In this document: positions 56,117 through 60,558 of the stretch, in pieces | Layout of the letters: each line of letters starts with the position of its first letter | Position numbering within the stretch: position 1 is the stretch's first letter | NCBI RefSeq assembly: GCF_018304765.1 | Contig: NZ_CP072642.1 | Span: 2,571,819 to 2,635,818, forward strand | Source: Chloracidobacterium sp. N | GTDB lineage: Bacteria; Acidobacteriota; Blastocatellia; Chloracidobacteriales; Chloracidobacteriaceae | Length of the DNA: 64,000 nucleotides | Direction: 5' to 3' | Notes under the pieces: model-generated | Databases searched by the model: none | What the model was told of the DNA's origin: nothing | Seen by the model: the letters and a program-made list of their open reading frames with translations, nothing else | Translations under genes and position numbers: made by a program

Positions 56117-56227
56117 GGTGACATCCGTTGAGAACTGTCCTTGGGCGCGTCTTCGTTGCAGCGACGGCCATCGCTGATGAAGTACTGCGTATGGCGTGGA
56201 CACCGGTGAACTGGGCGAGCAAAGGCA

Positions 56228-57145
56228 ATGGCGTACGACAACCTGTGCAAGTATCTGGCAGAAACCTACCCGGCGGCTTTCGTCCGCTGGCTCGCCAGGC
56301 ATTATCCTGAGCTTCCACACGACATGGAAGCCGCTGAAGTCGAGGTTCTCAAAACCGAACTGCCCGTCGAGCCGATTCGCGCCGATTTCGTCACCTTCAT
56401 CCGGGCCGCAGGCGTGCTTCTGCACATCGAGTTTCACCTCGATCCGGCTTCCGACCCACCGCTGGCGTTTCGGATGCTGGAGTACTGGGTGCGTCTTTTC
56501 CGCCGCTACCGCACTCCGGCCCGGCAGGTGGTTCTGTTGCTGAAGAGTACACCGGCGGCCCGGGAGATGCCCAGCACGTTCACAGCCGGTATGACACACC
56601 ATGGTTTCCACGTGCTGCGTCTGTGGGAAGTTGAAGCGACTGAACTTCTGGATGACGAAGCTTTGTTGCCGCTGGCTGTTCTCGGAAAAGCGGACTCCGA
56701 CGAGGCACTTTTGCGGGAAACTGCGGCGCGGGTCGAGCAGATGACAGACGCCAGCCAACGCGCTAACGTGTCAGCCTGTGCGCAGGTGCTGGCCGGATTG
56801 CGCTTTGACCGGGAGTTGATCCGGGCTTTATTTCGGGAGGAAGCGATGCGGGAATCGGTCATCTATCAGGAAATCATCGAACGTGGGCTGGCGCAGGGTG
56901 TCGAACGCGGGCTGGCGCAGGGCAGTCATCTGGAAGCCATCCGGCTGGCCCGCACGCTGCTCGAACGCCGCTTTGGCCCGCTCCCGGAAAGCATCGCCGC
57001 CCAGGTTGCCCTGCTGTCACGGGAACAGGCTGAAAACCTGGTTGTTGAAACTCTGAAATTCGACAGCCTTGACGCGGTACGTACCTGGCTGGCCGTCCAG
57101 CCTACGACTTCCGAAGCGACTGAAGACCCGTCCAGTCCTTCGTAA
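56228..57145 (+). CDS. Rpn-family recombination-promoting nuclease-like protein, copy 1
   Basis: A 305-aa protein of the Rpn/PD-(D/E)XK group (often labelled putative transposase). The nuclease core lies in residues 35-160. Probable metal residues are Asp53 in RADFVTF and Glu68 in LLHIEFHLDP, with His70 where Gln is common. A helical segment (about 165-205) precedes a C-terminal region with two 8-residue ERGLAQG(V/S) repeats and a DUF4351-like tail (ARTLLERRFGPLPESIAAQV). A strong GGGAGG and in-frame ATG at 56846 (residue 207) could yield a separate 99-aa C-terminal protein. Members in E. coli act as DNases inhibited by such internal products. Confidence 0.88.
   Translation: MAYDNLCKYLAETYPAAFVRWLARHYPELPHDMEAAEVEVLKTELPVEPIRADFVTFIRAAGVLLHIEFHLDPASDPPLAFRMLEYWVRLFRRYRTPARQVVLLLKSTPAAREMPSTFTAGMTHHGFHVLRLWEVEATELLDDEALLPLAVLGKADSDEALLRETAARVEQMTDASQRANVSACAQVLAGLRFDRELIRALFREEAMRESVIYQEIIERGLAQGVERGLAQGSHLEAIRLARTLLERRFGPLPESIAAQVALLSREQAENLVVETLKFDSLDAVRTWLAVQPTTSEATEDPSSPS
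56846..57145 (+). CDS. Possible internally translated C-terminal product (RpnS-like), copy 1
   Basis: GGGAGG at 56835-56840 lies five bases before ATG 56846, in frame with the Rpn gene, a better start signal than that of the full-length gene. It would give 99 residues starting MRESVIYQEIIERGL and containing the 8-aa repeats. By analogy with E. coli Rpn proteins this would be the intragenic antitoxin. The same signal is at 57862 and 58878 in copies 2 and 3 (the latter 115 residues). Translation is inferred. Confidence 0.5.
   Translation: MRESVIYQEIIERGLAQGVERGLAQGSHLEAIRLARTLLERRFGPLPESIAAQVALLSREQAENLVVETLKFDSLDAVRTWLAVQPTTSEATEDPSSPS
56879..56926 (+). repeat. 24-bp in-frame repeats, two units (Rpn copy 1)
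   Basis: Two 24-bp units, each encoding ERGLAQG plus one residue (V, then S). The same two-unit array is at 57895-57942 in copy 2. Confidence 0.85.
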
Positions 57146-57155
57146 CGGCCAGGCT

Positions 57156-57203
57156 TCAGGCTACACCAGCACGCGCTGCCAGAGTTGCAAACTCGCGCCG
57201 GGC
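57156..57203 (-). pseudogene. Remnant of the amidohydrolase 3' end in spacer 1
   Basis: Read on the minus strand the spacer encodes ARREFATLAARAGVA followed by TGA. The intact amidohydrolase gene at 59236-60558 ends ARREFTALAVRAGVA and TGA. Thirteen of 15 residues agree, and the nucleotide match continues across the stop. Upstream of this the similarity ends, so only about 50 bp of the gene is left. Confidence 0.78.
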
Positions 57204-57243
57204 CCAAACTCAAATCCCGGCTGCGTCTGCCTAAGCAAGGGCA

Positions 57244-58161
57244 ATGGCGTACGACAACCTGTGCAAGTATCTGGCAGAAACCTACCCGGCGGCTTTCGTC
57301 CGCTGGCTCGCCAGGCATTATCCTGAGCTTCCACACGACATGGAAGCCGCTGAAGTCGAGGTTCTCAAAACCGAACTGCCCGTCGAGCCGATTCGCGCCG
57401 ATTTCGTCACCTTCATCCGGGCCGCAGGCGTGCTTCTGCACATCGAGTTTCACCTCGATCCGGCTTCCGACCCACCGCTGGCGTTTCGGATGCTGGAGTA
57501 CTGGGTGCGTCTTTTCCGCCGCTACCGCACTCCGGCCCGGCAGGTGGTTCTGTTGCTGAAGAGTACACCGGCGGCCCGGGAGATGCCCAGCACGTTCACA
57601 GCCGGTATGACACACCATGGTTTCCACGTGCTGCGTCTGTGGGAAGTTGAAGCGACTGAACTTCTGGATGACGAAGCTTTGTTGCCGCTGGCTGTTCTCG
57701 GAAAAGCGGACTCCGACGAGGCACTTTTGCGGGAAACTGCGGCGCGGGTCGAGCAGATGACAGACGCCAGCCAACGCGCTAACGTGTCAGCCTGTGCGCA
57801 GGTGCTGGCCGGATTGCGCTTTGACCGGGAGTTGATCCGGGCTTTATTTCGGGAGGAAGCGATGCGGGAATCGGTCATCTATCAGGAAATCATCGAACGT
57901 GGGCTGGCGCAGGGTGTCGAACGCGGGCTGGCGCAGGGCAGTCATCTGGAAGCCATCCGGCTGGCCCGCACGCTGCTCGAACGCCGCTTTGGCCCGCTCC
58001 CGGAAAGCATCGCCGCCCAGGTTGCCCTGCTGTCACGGGAACAGGCTGAAAACCTGGTTGTTGAAACTCTGAAATTCGACAGCCTTGACGCGGTACGTAC
58101 CTGGCTGGCCGTCCAGCCTACGACTTCCGAAGCGACTGAAGACCCGTCCAGTCCTTCGTAA
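57244..58161 (+). CDS. Rpn-family recombination-promoting nuclease-like protein, copy 2
   Basis: Encodes a 305-aa protein identical in every residue to copy 1, with the same Asp53/Glu68 nuclease core, two ERGLAQG repeats and internal ATG (57862) preceded by GGGAGG. The upstream context differs slightly from copy 1 (AAGCAAGGGCA before ATG instead of GAGCAAAGGCA). The perfect identity, including silent positions, means a very recent duplication or active gene conversion. Any protein expression or toxicity would add to that of copy 1. Confidence 0.88.
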   Translation: MAYDNLCKYLAETYPAAFVRWLARHYPELPHDMEAAEVEVLKTELPVEPIRADFVTFIRAAGVLLHIEFHLDPASDPPLAFRMLEYWVRLFRRYRTPARQVVLLLKSTPAAREMPSTFTAGMTHHGFHVLRLWEVEATELLDDEALLPLAVLGKADSDEALLRETAARVEQMTDASQRANVSACAQVLAGLRFDRELIRALFREEAMRESVIYQEIIERGLAQGVERGLAQGSHLEAIRLARTLLERRFGPLPESIAAQVALLSREQAENLVVETLKFDSLDAVRTWLAVQPTTSEATEDPSSPS

Positions 58162-58171
58162 CGGCCAGGCT

Positions 58172-58219
58172 TCAGGCTACACCAGCACGCGCTGCCAGAG
58201 TTGCAAACTCGCGCCGGGC
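58172..58219 (-). pseudogene. Remnant of the amidohydrolase 3' end in spacer 2
   Basis: Identical to the remnant at 57156-57203, shifted by the 1016-bp repeat period. It shows that the diverged spacer already existed when copies 1 and 2 arose. Confidence 0.78.
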
Positions 58220-58259
58220 CCAAACTCAAATCCCGGCTGCGTCTGCCTAAGCAAGGGCA

Positions 58260-59225
58260 ATGGCGTACGACAACCTGTGCAAGTATCTGGCAGAAACCTA
58301 CCCGGCGGCTTTCGTCCGCTGGCTCGCCAGGCATTATCCTGAGCTTCCACACGACATGGAAGCCGCTGAAGTCGAGGTTCTCAAAACCGAACTGCCCGTC
58401 GAGCCGATTCGCGCCGATTTCGTCACCTTCATCCGGGCCGCAGGCGTGCTTCTGCACATCGAGTTTCACCTCGATCCGGCTTCCGACCCACCGCTGGCGT
58501 TTCGGATGCTGGAGTACTGGGTGCGTCTTTTCCGCCGCTACCGCACTCCGGCCCGGCAGGTGGTTCTGTTGCTGAAGAGTACACCGGCGGCCCGGGAGAT
58601 GCCCAGCACGTTCACAGCCGGTATGACACACCATGGTTTCCACGTGCTGCGTCTGTGGGAAGTTGAAGCGACTGAACTTCTGGATGACGAAGCTTTGTTG
58701 CCGCTGGCTGTTCTCGGAAAAGCGGACTCCGACGAGGCACTTTTGCGGGAAACTGCGGCGCGGGTCGAGCAGATGACAGACGCCAGCCAACGCGCTAACG
58801 TGTCAGCCTGTGCGCAGGTGCTGGCCGGATTGCGCTTTGACCGGGAGTTGATCCGGGCTTTATTTCGGGAGGAAGCGATGCGGGAATCGGTCATCTATCA
58901 GGAAATCATCGAACGTGGGCTGGCGCAGGGTGTCGAACGCGGGCTGGCGCAGGGCATTGAACGCGGGCTGGCACAGGGTGTCGAACGCGGGCTGGCGCAG
59001 GGCAGTCACCTGGAAGCCATCCGGCTGGCCCGCACGCTGCTCGAACGCCGTTTTGGCCCGCTCCCGGAAAGCATCGCTGCCCAGATTGGCCTGCTGTCAC
59101 GGGAACAGGCCGAAAACCTGGCTGTCGAAACTCTGAACTTTGACAGCCTCGACGCGGTACGTACCTGGCTGGCCCTCCAGCCCACGACTTCCGAAGTCAC
59201 CGAAAACCCGGACAAGCCTTCGTAA
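58260..59225 (+). CDS. Rpn-family recombination-promoting nuclease-like protein, copy 3 (expanded repeats)
   Basis: A 321-aa protein, identical to copies 1 and 2 over the first 217 residues. It then has four ERGLAQG units instead of two (16 extra residues). The tail differs in places: AAQIGLLSREQAENLAVETL and TSEVTENPDKPS, against AQVALLSREQAENLVVETL and TSEATEDPSSPS. The nuclease residues and the internal GGGAGG-ATG (58878) are kept. Because only the C-terminal, possibly antitoxin, part differs, its product might not be interchangeable with that of copies 1 and 2. It converges with the amidohydrolase gene across 10 bp. Confidence 0.88.
   Translation: MAYDNLCKYLAETYPAAFVRWLARHYPELPHDMEAAEVEVLKTELPVEPIRADFVTFIRAAGVLLHIEFHLDPASDPPLAFRMLEYWVRLFRRYRTPARQVVLLLKSTPAAREMPSTFTAGMTHHGFHVLRLWEVEATELLDDEALLPLAVLGKADSDEALLRETAARVEQMTDASQRANVSACAQVLAGLRFDRELIRALFREEAMRESVIYQEIIERGLAQGVERGLAQGIERGLAQGVERGLAQGSHLEAIRLARTLLERRFGPLPESIAAQIGLLSREQAENLAVETLNFDSLDAVRTWLALQPTTSEVTENPDKPS
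58911..59006 (+). repeat. 24-bp in-frame repeats, four units (Rpn copy 3)
   Basis: Four contiguous 24-bp units at 58911, 58935, 58959 and 58983 encode ERGLAQGV, ERGLAQGI, ERGLAQGV and ERGLAQGS. The two middle units are an insertion relative to copies 1 and 2, as expected from slippage or unequal exchange. Confidence 0.92.
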
Positions 59226-59235
59226 CGGCCAGGCT

Positions 59236-60558
59236 TCAGGCCACACCAGCCCGCACCGCCAAGGCGGTAAACTCACGCCGTGCCTGGGCCTGCACGTCTG
59301 CGGCATTGAGTGTCGTCAACGCTCCGTCGCGGACGACGACGCGACCGGCAATGACCACATGCCGTACGTCAGAAGCCATAGCCGCATAGACCAGGGCTGA
59401 GAGTGGATCGGGATGCGGCGCGGCATGCAGGGTGTCAAGCGTCACGACGGCTATATCGGCCGCTTTTCCCACGTCAAGACTGCCAATTTCGTTCTCCAGT
59501 CCAAGCGCCCGTGCTCCGTGCCAGGTTGCCATCTGAAAGGCGTCCAGCGCGGTGAGTTTTCGCGCGCCACAGCGCATTTTCTGAAGCAGCGCGGCTGTCC
59601 GCATTTCCGTGAAGGCATCGAGCCGGTTGTTGCACGGTGCGCCATCGGCGCCCAGGGAAACTGAAATACCGCGCTCCAGCATTTCCACGACTTTGGCGAT
59701 GCCGGAGCCGAGTTTCAGGTTTGAGGACGGGCAGTGCAGCACGTGGGTTCCGGTCTCGGCCAGAAGCTCCTGCTCGGTCTCGTCAAGCCAGATACAGTGC
59801 GCGATGCCGACGTGGGGGCCGGTCAGGCCCAGCGCGTGCAGGTGTGCCAGGTTTCGCCGTCCGGTCAGACGTTCGACCAGCGCCACTTCATCCCGGCTTT
59901 CCGAAGCGTGCGTGTGGATGCGTACGCCCTTTTCACGCGCCAGGGCTGCCACTTCCCGCAACAGCGTTTCGGTGCACGACAAAACGAAGCGGGGCGCAAA
60001 GGCCATGTGAATCCGGCCCCCGGCCTGGCCGTGCCAGGCGTCGAGCAGGCGGAGGGATTCAGTACGCGCCTGCGCTGTCGTCTCACGAAGGCCCGGGGGC
60101 ACTTCATCGCCGGCATCCATCAGGCACTTCCCGACAACCGCGCGAAAACCGGTTTCGGCAACGACCTCCAGGGCCGCTTCCGTGTGGTGGACACTCTCCA
60201 TCGTCATGGCGCAGGTCGTCCCACCGGACATCATTTCTGCGATGGCGAGTTGCGCCGAAACCCGGAGACTGTCAGGTGTGTGGGCGGCCTCGAACTTCCA
60301 GATGCGCGTCTTCAGCCAGTCGAGAAGTTCAAGATCGTCGGCCGCACCCCGGAACAGAGTCTGGCACAGATGAATGTGCGATTGGACAAAACCCGGTATC
60401 ACCACGCACCCGGAGGCATCGAGTGTCTCATCGGCTGTTTCAGGAACTTTGCCCAGGTGCGTGATGCGGCCGTCCTGCACATAGAGATCGCCGTTGATGA
60501 CTTGGTGGTGTGGGCCGCCCGTGAGCAGTGTGCCGTCGATAATCCGCAGCGTCGGCAT
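59236..60558 (-). CDS. Amidohydrolase, MTA/SAH-deaminase-like
   Basis: The 440-aa metal-dependent hydrolase has the N-terminal HxH in GFVQSHIHLCQTLFRG. The middle motifs are VRIHTHASESRDEVAL and GPHVGIAHCIWLD. The substrate and metal region is CPSSNLKLGSGIAKVVEML, and the late Asp is in SVSLGADGAPCNNRLDAF. This set fits the TrzN/MtaD group that deaminates methylthioadenosine, S-adenosylhomocysteine or 5'-deoxyadenosine; specificity is not decided. The start at 60558 lies 5 bp after the upstream methyltransferase stop. The 3' end (ARREFTALAVRAGVA) is duplicated as a fragment in the Rpn spacers. Confidence 0.88.
   Translation of the reverse strand: MPTLRIIDGTLLTGGPHHQVINGDLYVQDGRITHLGKVPETADETLDASGCVVIPGFVQSHIHLCQTLFRGAADDLELLDWLKTRIWKFEAAHTPDSLRVSAQLAIAEMMSGGTTCAMTMESVHHTEAALEVVAETGFRAVVGKCLMDAGDEVPPGLRETTAQARTESLRLLDAWHGQAGGRIHMAFAPRFVLSCTETLLREVAALAREKGVRIHTHASESRDEVALVERLTGRRNLAHLHALGLTGPHVGIAHCIWLDETEQELLAETGTHVLHCPSSNLKLGSGIAKVVEMLERGISVSLGADGAPCNNRLDAFTEMRTAALLQKMRCGARKLTALDAFQMATWHGARALGLENEIGSLDVGKAADIAVVTLDTLHAAPHPDPLSALVYAAMASDVRHVVIAGRVVVRDGALTTLNAADVQAQARREFTALAVRAGVA

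Follow-up and report, generated by a model that had tools for sequence, protein, structure and literature searches.

In Escherichia coli, rpn genes encode a toxic nuclease, RpnL, together with an inhibitor, RpnS, that is translated from an internal start (PMC10327210, Zhong et al. 2023). Short repeats follow 8-20 residues after this start and their number is variable; for RpnC, one added repeat abolishes recognition unless it is present in both partners. RpnS also occurs as a separate gene, annotated as DUF4351 in some species, the plasmid-borne RpnP2 gives protection from some phages, and arrays of rpn genes resemble tandem direct duplications (PMC10327210). Here, we describe three adjacent rpn-like genes of Chloracidobacterium sp. 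N, found in a window of 64,000 nucleotides (the whole stretch of DNA that was analysed; contig NZ_CP072642.1, positions 2,571,819 to 2,635,818). Their organization is best explained as a whole by a gene-within-gene toxin-antitoxin arrangement resembling RpnL/RpnS, a reading that draws on sequence and on analogy and to which we attach moderate confidence.

The nuclease-like half and the probable internal start codon

According to this reading, each copy would encode a DUF4351-type Rpn protein, consisting of an N-terminal PD-(D/E)XK DNA endonuclease, a flexible hinge and a C-terminal domain in which one long helix carrying the repeats precedes short helices. At the hinge, translation would also start a second time (ATG 56846, 57862 and 58878), yielding the C-terminal domain as a separate short protein. 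On the model of E. coli RpnL/RpnS, this short protein would bind the corresponding helix in the full-length nuclease and keep the nuclease inactive until a trigger, possibly phage infection, frees it to cut DNA. Were the repeat-number rule of RpnC to apply, copies 1 and 2, with two octamers each, would have inhibitors interchangeable with one another and not with that of copy 3, with four. Nuclease activity, toxicity, inhibition, the trigger and repeat-number specificity are what we infer for these genes.

The three reading frames follow each other with a period of 1016 bp. Copies 1 and 2 are 100% identical, spacer of 98 bp included, and the run of identity at a shift of 1016 extends over 1717 bp (56224-57940). 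Copy 3 has the same sequence until the end of the repeat array, after which it differs by two additional octamers and by scattered changes in the tail; the 24-bp units found by TRF correspond to 2, 2 and 4 octamers. Each copy has GGGAGG and an in-frame ATG ahead of the array, which begins around residue 11-12 of the short protein, as in RpnL/RpnS, where the repeats lie 8-20 residues past the internal start, in the first helix. The difference in repeat number between adjacent copies falls within the inhibitor-like helix. The genes, their period, GGGAGG, the in-frame ATGs and the array sizes had been pointed out in the earlier note and are seen in the sequence; the identity of copies 1 and 2 had not been noted there.

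The internal start is probably real, since the excess of Shine-Dalgarno (SD) strength peaks there in 79 relatives and since stand-alone C-terminal genes in cyanobacteria share the same first Met. The relatives come from a scan of GTDB species genomes in which at least 514 were confirmed; of these, the 80 best were retained, 77 being cyanobacteria according to their titles, and 79 form the non-redundant set used for the conservation and SD counts. For every codon, the strength of the upstream SD was set against that in synonymous shuffles; the excess was largest at the internal Met among 213 codon positions (mean z -1.55, with a spread over positions of 0.31), the next-largest values belonging to neighbouring codons with the same upstream stretch. 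When the set was reduced to 20 representatives by clustering at 60% identity, the internal Met again ranked first, of 212 positions, with z -1.26 and a combined p of 1.8e-4, the lowest value at any other position being -0.59. At this site, 71 of the 79 relatives have ATG. Eight stand-alone C-terminal genes are present in 6 of the 80 loci (two each in L073 and L139, one each in L078, L120, L127 and L145). All have the internal Met, which in six of the eight is preceded by no other possible start codon in the frame; the first gene of L139 has no SD. They were retained from 13 short open reading frames, five having been dropped: L043 and L053 as cuts at a locus edge, L148 as a frame-broken remnant, L106 because its match begins further down the profile, and L082 for want of a start motif. 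Alone, the short protein is predicted to form a long helix (3-43) and three short helices.

Taken by themselves, the window genes make a modest case. Calculated with the anti-SD letters of E. coli, the pairing energy is -10.3 kcal/mol at the internal ATG; at the start of the full-length frame it is -6.0 in copy 1 and -2.7 in copies 2 and 3. However, 9.5-14.5% of synonymous codon shuffles match the internal SD strength, and within these genes the internal SD is not beyond chance. Of the alternatives, the one that survives best is that these are single-product nucleases, the internal ATG and GGGAGG simply following from the conserved peptide FREEAMRESVIYQ without serving as a translation start. 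The conservation of that peptide, the outcome of the shuffles and the orthologue of the related genome G005, which retains the ATG with a weak SD (-2.9), would fit such an origin. We nevertheless consider it unlikely, as it leaves unexplained why the excess over synonymous expectation is greatest at precisely this Met, also among the cluster representatives, and why the stand-alone genes bear the identical Met.

The N-terminal half is predicted to be a PD-(D/E)XK-like nuclease, as the earlier note had proposed, and this is supported by the order and conservation of its acidic residues: D4, D53 and E68 are found in 79 of 79 relatives and can be matched by motif order to D11, D63 and E82 of RpnA. 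In the AlphaFold2 model of the full-length protein (pLDDT 88.7), the hinge of lowest confidence, 206-209, contains the internal Met (M207), and a helix spanning residues 207-265 covers the repeats. Residues 1-135 of the model align best with EndoMS/NucS (Z 8.4, root-mean-square deviation 3.0 Å, 101 residues), followed by PaqCI, Shedu and McrC at Z 5.7-6.1 and by many nucleases at Z 5-6. Foldseek alone gave no match at E 0.001, a sequence search of the PDB gave nothing informative, and a profile comparison with a PF04754-type alignment aligned 25 columns only, around the E-x-Q motif.

Where motif order places the counterpart of RpnA Q84, the window genes have His; among the 79 relatives, Gln occurs 70 times, Glu 5 times, His 3 times and Thr once, with His confined to the genus Chloracidobacterium. 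In PMC5350276, the RpnA variants D11A, D63A, E82A and Q84K are described as having lost all phenotypes, while Q84A still kills. The loss of phenotype in Q84K and the genus-specific His leave room for the idea that the three genes are nuclease-dead paralogues, in which the substitution ends cutting and the conserved tail acts, as an inhibitor or decoy, on further Rpn proteins in the cell, such as those of a second array on contig C2 (see below). This seems unlikely: D4, D53 and E68 are intact, the position also accommodates Glu or Thr in relatives, Q84A of RpnA is toxic nonetheless, and the entire nuclease half has been retained in three copies. Cross-inhibition is also unlikely, since the tails encoded on C2 belong to another sequence type.

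Several observations weigh against the toxin-antitoxin reading, in addition to the genus-specific His and the weak SD of the G005 orthologue. By profile, the window proteins are DUF4351 proteins and sub-threshold Rpn relatives: the C-terminal match to PF14261 (DUF4351), at 33.4 and 38.7 bits above the gathering cutoff of 25, and a match to the NCBIfam Rpn model TIGR01784 over nearly its whole length speak for the reading, but the TIGR01784 scores of 29.4 and 29.2 bits lie below the curated cutoff of 52.1, and the E. coli Rpn domain PF04754 (Transposase_31) gave no match in Pfam up to E 10. The Z of 8.4 lies only a little over the 7-8 typically reached by models that lack a clear match, and an RNA polymerase subunit, which is not a nuclease, aligns at Z 6.5. 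Eight of the 79 relatives lack ATG at the internal start, having TTG (3) or a non-start Leu codon (5), and only 3 of the 20 cluster representatives reach p 0.05 singly. RpnAS (PDB 7TH0) was not recovered by Foldseek, which gave no significant match to any entry, or by profile search. Finally, no defence gene is found among the four nearest neighbours (two per side), and the promoter scan revealed no sigma-70-like internal promoter.

The coordinates of the features are collected in the table. To the left, the genes are flanked by a divergent SLT transglycosylase gene and to the right by a convergent amidohydrolase gene; the next genes outward encode an MFS transporter and an Rsm22-type methyltransferase. 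For the locus, an Rfam search, the promoter scan and PHROGs gave nothing informative, terminator-like sites were at chance level, and PADLOC gave a weak match for the window protein, in the repeat region only.

Table. Positions of the rpn-like genes and their putative internal elements in the window
Feature	Coordinates	Strand	Basis
rpn-like copy 1, full-length, 305 residues, nuclease half and DUF4351 tail	56228..57145	+	open reading frame, Pfam, NCBIfam
rpn-like copy 2, 305 residues, same as copy 1	57244..58161	+	open reading frame, self-comparison
rpn-like copy 3, 321 residues, four octamers, differing tail	58260..59225	+	open reading frame, self-comparison
Internal frame of copy 1, putatively RpnS-like, 99 residues, predicted 10.9 kDa	56846..57145	+	SD comparison across relatives
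Internal frame of copy 2, putatively RpnS-like, 99 residues, predicted 10.9 kDa	57862..58161	+	SD comparison across relatives
Internal frame of copy 3, putatively RpnS-like, 115 residues, predicted 12.6 kDa	58878..59225	+	SD comparison across relatives
GGGAGG, SD-like, copy 1, 5 nt upstream of internal ATG	56835..56840	+	
GGGAGG, copy 2	57851..57856	+	
GGGAGG, copy 3	58867..58872	+	
24-bp repeat array, 1.9 units, copy 1	56877..56922	+	TRF
24-bp repeat array, 1.9 units, copy 2	57893..57938	+	TRF
24-bp repeat array, 3.9 units, copy 3	58909..59002	+	TRF
98-bp spacer between copies 1 and 2	57146..57243	.	identical to spacer 58162-58259

Related loci and the array on contig C2

The genome, of 3.7 Mb, consists of two contigs, and 23 of 58 related genomes have a match to the genes at E 0.001. 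In genome G001, two adjacent copies lie between the genes that also flank the window copies; they are 92% alike in the first 300 nt compared, and the left one has four octamers, the right one two. A single orthologue is present in G005 (77%) and in G006 (69%), the latter with two additional fragments at contig ends that maybe represent a second copy. In the last full block of 120 columns, the tail of copy 3 differs at 4 sites from the right copy of G001 and at 20 from the left one, and that shared by copies 1 and 2 is roughly as distant from the one as from the other (14 and 19). From these sequences, we read the history of the locus as tandem duplication with gene conversion, which would have kept the nuclease half common to all three copies, with the array and tail of copy 3 differing. 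Alternatively, the array could in part be an assembly artefact: copies 1 and 2, which match exactly in the assembly, spacer included, would then reflect a mis-assembled repeat, with two copies on the chromosome. This is very unlikely given an assembly in two contigs, a distinct copy 3 and two diverged adjacent copies beside the same genes in G001.

Some relatives have peculiarities of their own. In the G006 orthologue (L010:1501-2424), the sequence before the internal Met reads LFREESGLFREETMRES, and the SD-coding segment looks duplicated in frame. In genome G009, some 7 kb separates two nearly identical rpn-like genes (L050:1880-2809 and L050:9285-10160), with a difference of five tetrapeptides between their arrays. 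In Moorena bouillonii (L073:2794-3512), two consecutive stand-alone C-terminal genes precede the full-length one; their tails are alike and they too are five tetrapeptides apart.

A second array is found on contig C2 of the same genome, where four tandem Rpn genes of the PF04754 type (E ~1e-30) lie on the minus strand (L047:4083-8258; G000:C2:870082-874257). Counted by eye, they have 7, 5, 6 and 4 tetrapeptides between LLREG and (M/V)HRG, in proteins of 348, 340, 344 and 336 residues. In the surroundings of this array (L188, L189 and L047:8326-12924; G000:C2:852000-892000), PADLOC finds matches to DrmMI, DrmD/DpdE, DruE, a type III methylase and restriction enzyme, and a PD-T4-6 kinase, and the region is probably a defence island. 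G001 has one copy of the C2-type gene, with 2 tetrapeptides, flanked by DrmMI- and DruE-like genes (L190). Many minisatellites based on 7 bp (GGCGAGT-like) occur within and past the DrmMI-like gene of the C2 region (L047:8452-11944), with translated runs such as SATRHSPLATRHSPLA.

Repeat numbers of co-resident copies

One may imagine a pressure on rpn copies of one genome to diverge in repeat number, with each inhibitor neutralising its own nuclease only. Duplication followed by gain or loss of units would then lead to insulated modules, and stand-alone inhibitors would confer immunity to other copies instead of to their neighbour. The idea was prompted by the counts of 4, 5, 6 and 7 tetrapeptides on C2; in the window, the counts are 2, 2 and 4 octamers, and the eight cyanobacterial stand-alone inhibitors beside a full-length gene differ in repeat number from that neighbour in all eight cases. 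Copies 1 and 2 of the window, with equal numbers, are contrary to the pattern.

Net array length was compared in 44 same-locus pairs (including the 12 that suggested the idea, with extra regions chosen for adjacent copies), in 27 pairs from other loci of the same genome and in 106 pairs between genomes; the pairs share genes and genomes, are thus not independent, and genome labels were assigned by hand. Lengths were equal in 4/44, 2/27 and 17/106 pairs, respectively. Where the tails are at least 90% identical, 2 of 25 same-locus pairs were of equal length, compared with 9 of the 27 pairs from different genomes (p 0.040 by Fisher's test); at 95% or more, the figures are 1 of 13 and 5 of 9 (p 0.023). 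Below 90% there is no difference, with 2/19 versus 8/79; a pair of L161 scored as unequal (net 39) through an alignment artefact is equal by eye and would make the former 3/19. A pair of L165 was scored equal with 12 gap columns that cancel out.

In E. coli K-12, rpnE and the adjacent ypaA, which corresponds to a separate RpnES, are one 4-residue repeat apart (L172:4905-6002), and their repeat numbers differ in all 14 E. coli genomes in which both genes are whole (L172-L187). These stem from 16 regions, taken from 60 listed of 5371 matching records, of which one is without ypaA and one is cut, L180 having been assessed by eye. If the rule published for RpnC applied, YpaA might fail to block RpnE. 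However, when the 9 distinct rpnE/ypaA combinations are paired at random, no equal pair arises in 44% of trials.

Fast turnover of the arrays together with gene conversion of their flanks explains the pattern equally well and accounts for all data; the insulation of copies by repeat number is therefore unproven. It is weakly supported, and we deem it rather unlikely.

Relation to described Rpn systems

The earlier note had further proposed that a multi-copy array on a chromosome would be a new arrangement. This is wrong, since arrays are already mentioned in PMC10327210; tandem full-length copies also occur in seven other loci (L081, L152, L153, L154, L156, L157 and L159), and the same genome has its second array. 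The locus is probably a functional nuclease-with-inhibitor array of an already described kind. To this, the present analysis adds a variant with His at the Q84 position, two arrays in one genome, and comparative evidence that DUF4351-type genes have an internal start. Among the papers listed by the literature searches, none dealt with rpn arrays in Chloracidobacterium or with repeat mismatch between co-resident copies.

Sequence evidence for an internal start in Rpn genes is thereby extended from E. coli and Clostridioides difficile to the distant DUF4351 branch, which scores below the cutoff of the Rpn model and is common in cyanobacteria. The same nuclease halves with unequal arrays in one genome constitute natural material for asking whether repeat number decides the fit between inhibitor and nuclease. 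The C2 array, with counts one unit apart, is still better material for repeat-number specificity in one cell.

With the E. coli RpnL/RpnS systems (RpnA-E and RpnP2), the window genes have in common a predicted PD-(D/E)XK half, a probable internal ribosome-binding site and start, repeats 8-20 residues further on and a variable repeat number; PMC10327210 also mentions tandem arrays and separate rpnS genes, the latter as DUF4351 in some species. They differ in their DUF4351 tail, the lack of PF04754, a TIGR01784 score below the cutoff, an array of octamers and His instead of Gln in E-x-Q. The cyanobacterial DUF4351 proteins (L072-L151, annotated as Rpn family or related) belong to the same protein family, with 37-53% identity in the best segment, and resemble them in the internal Met with SD and in tandem or stand-alone copies, whereas these proteins mostly have Gln in E-x-Q (70 of 79, in a mixed set) and occur in other genomes and contexts. 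The C2 array, finally, shares with that of the window its tandem copies and repeats based on 4 residues, the number of which varies between copies, but it is of the PF04754 type, comprises four copies, has kept E-x-Q and lies among neighbours of the defence type.

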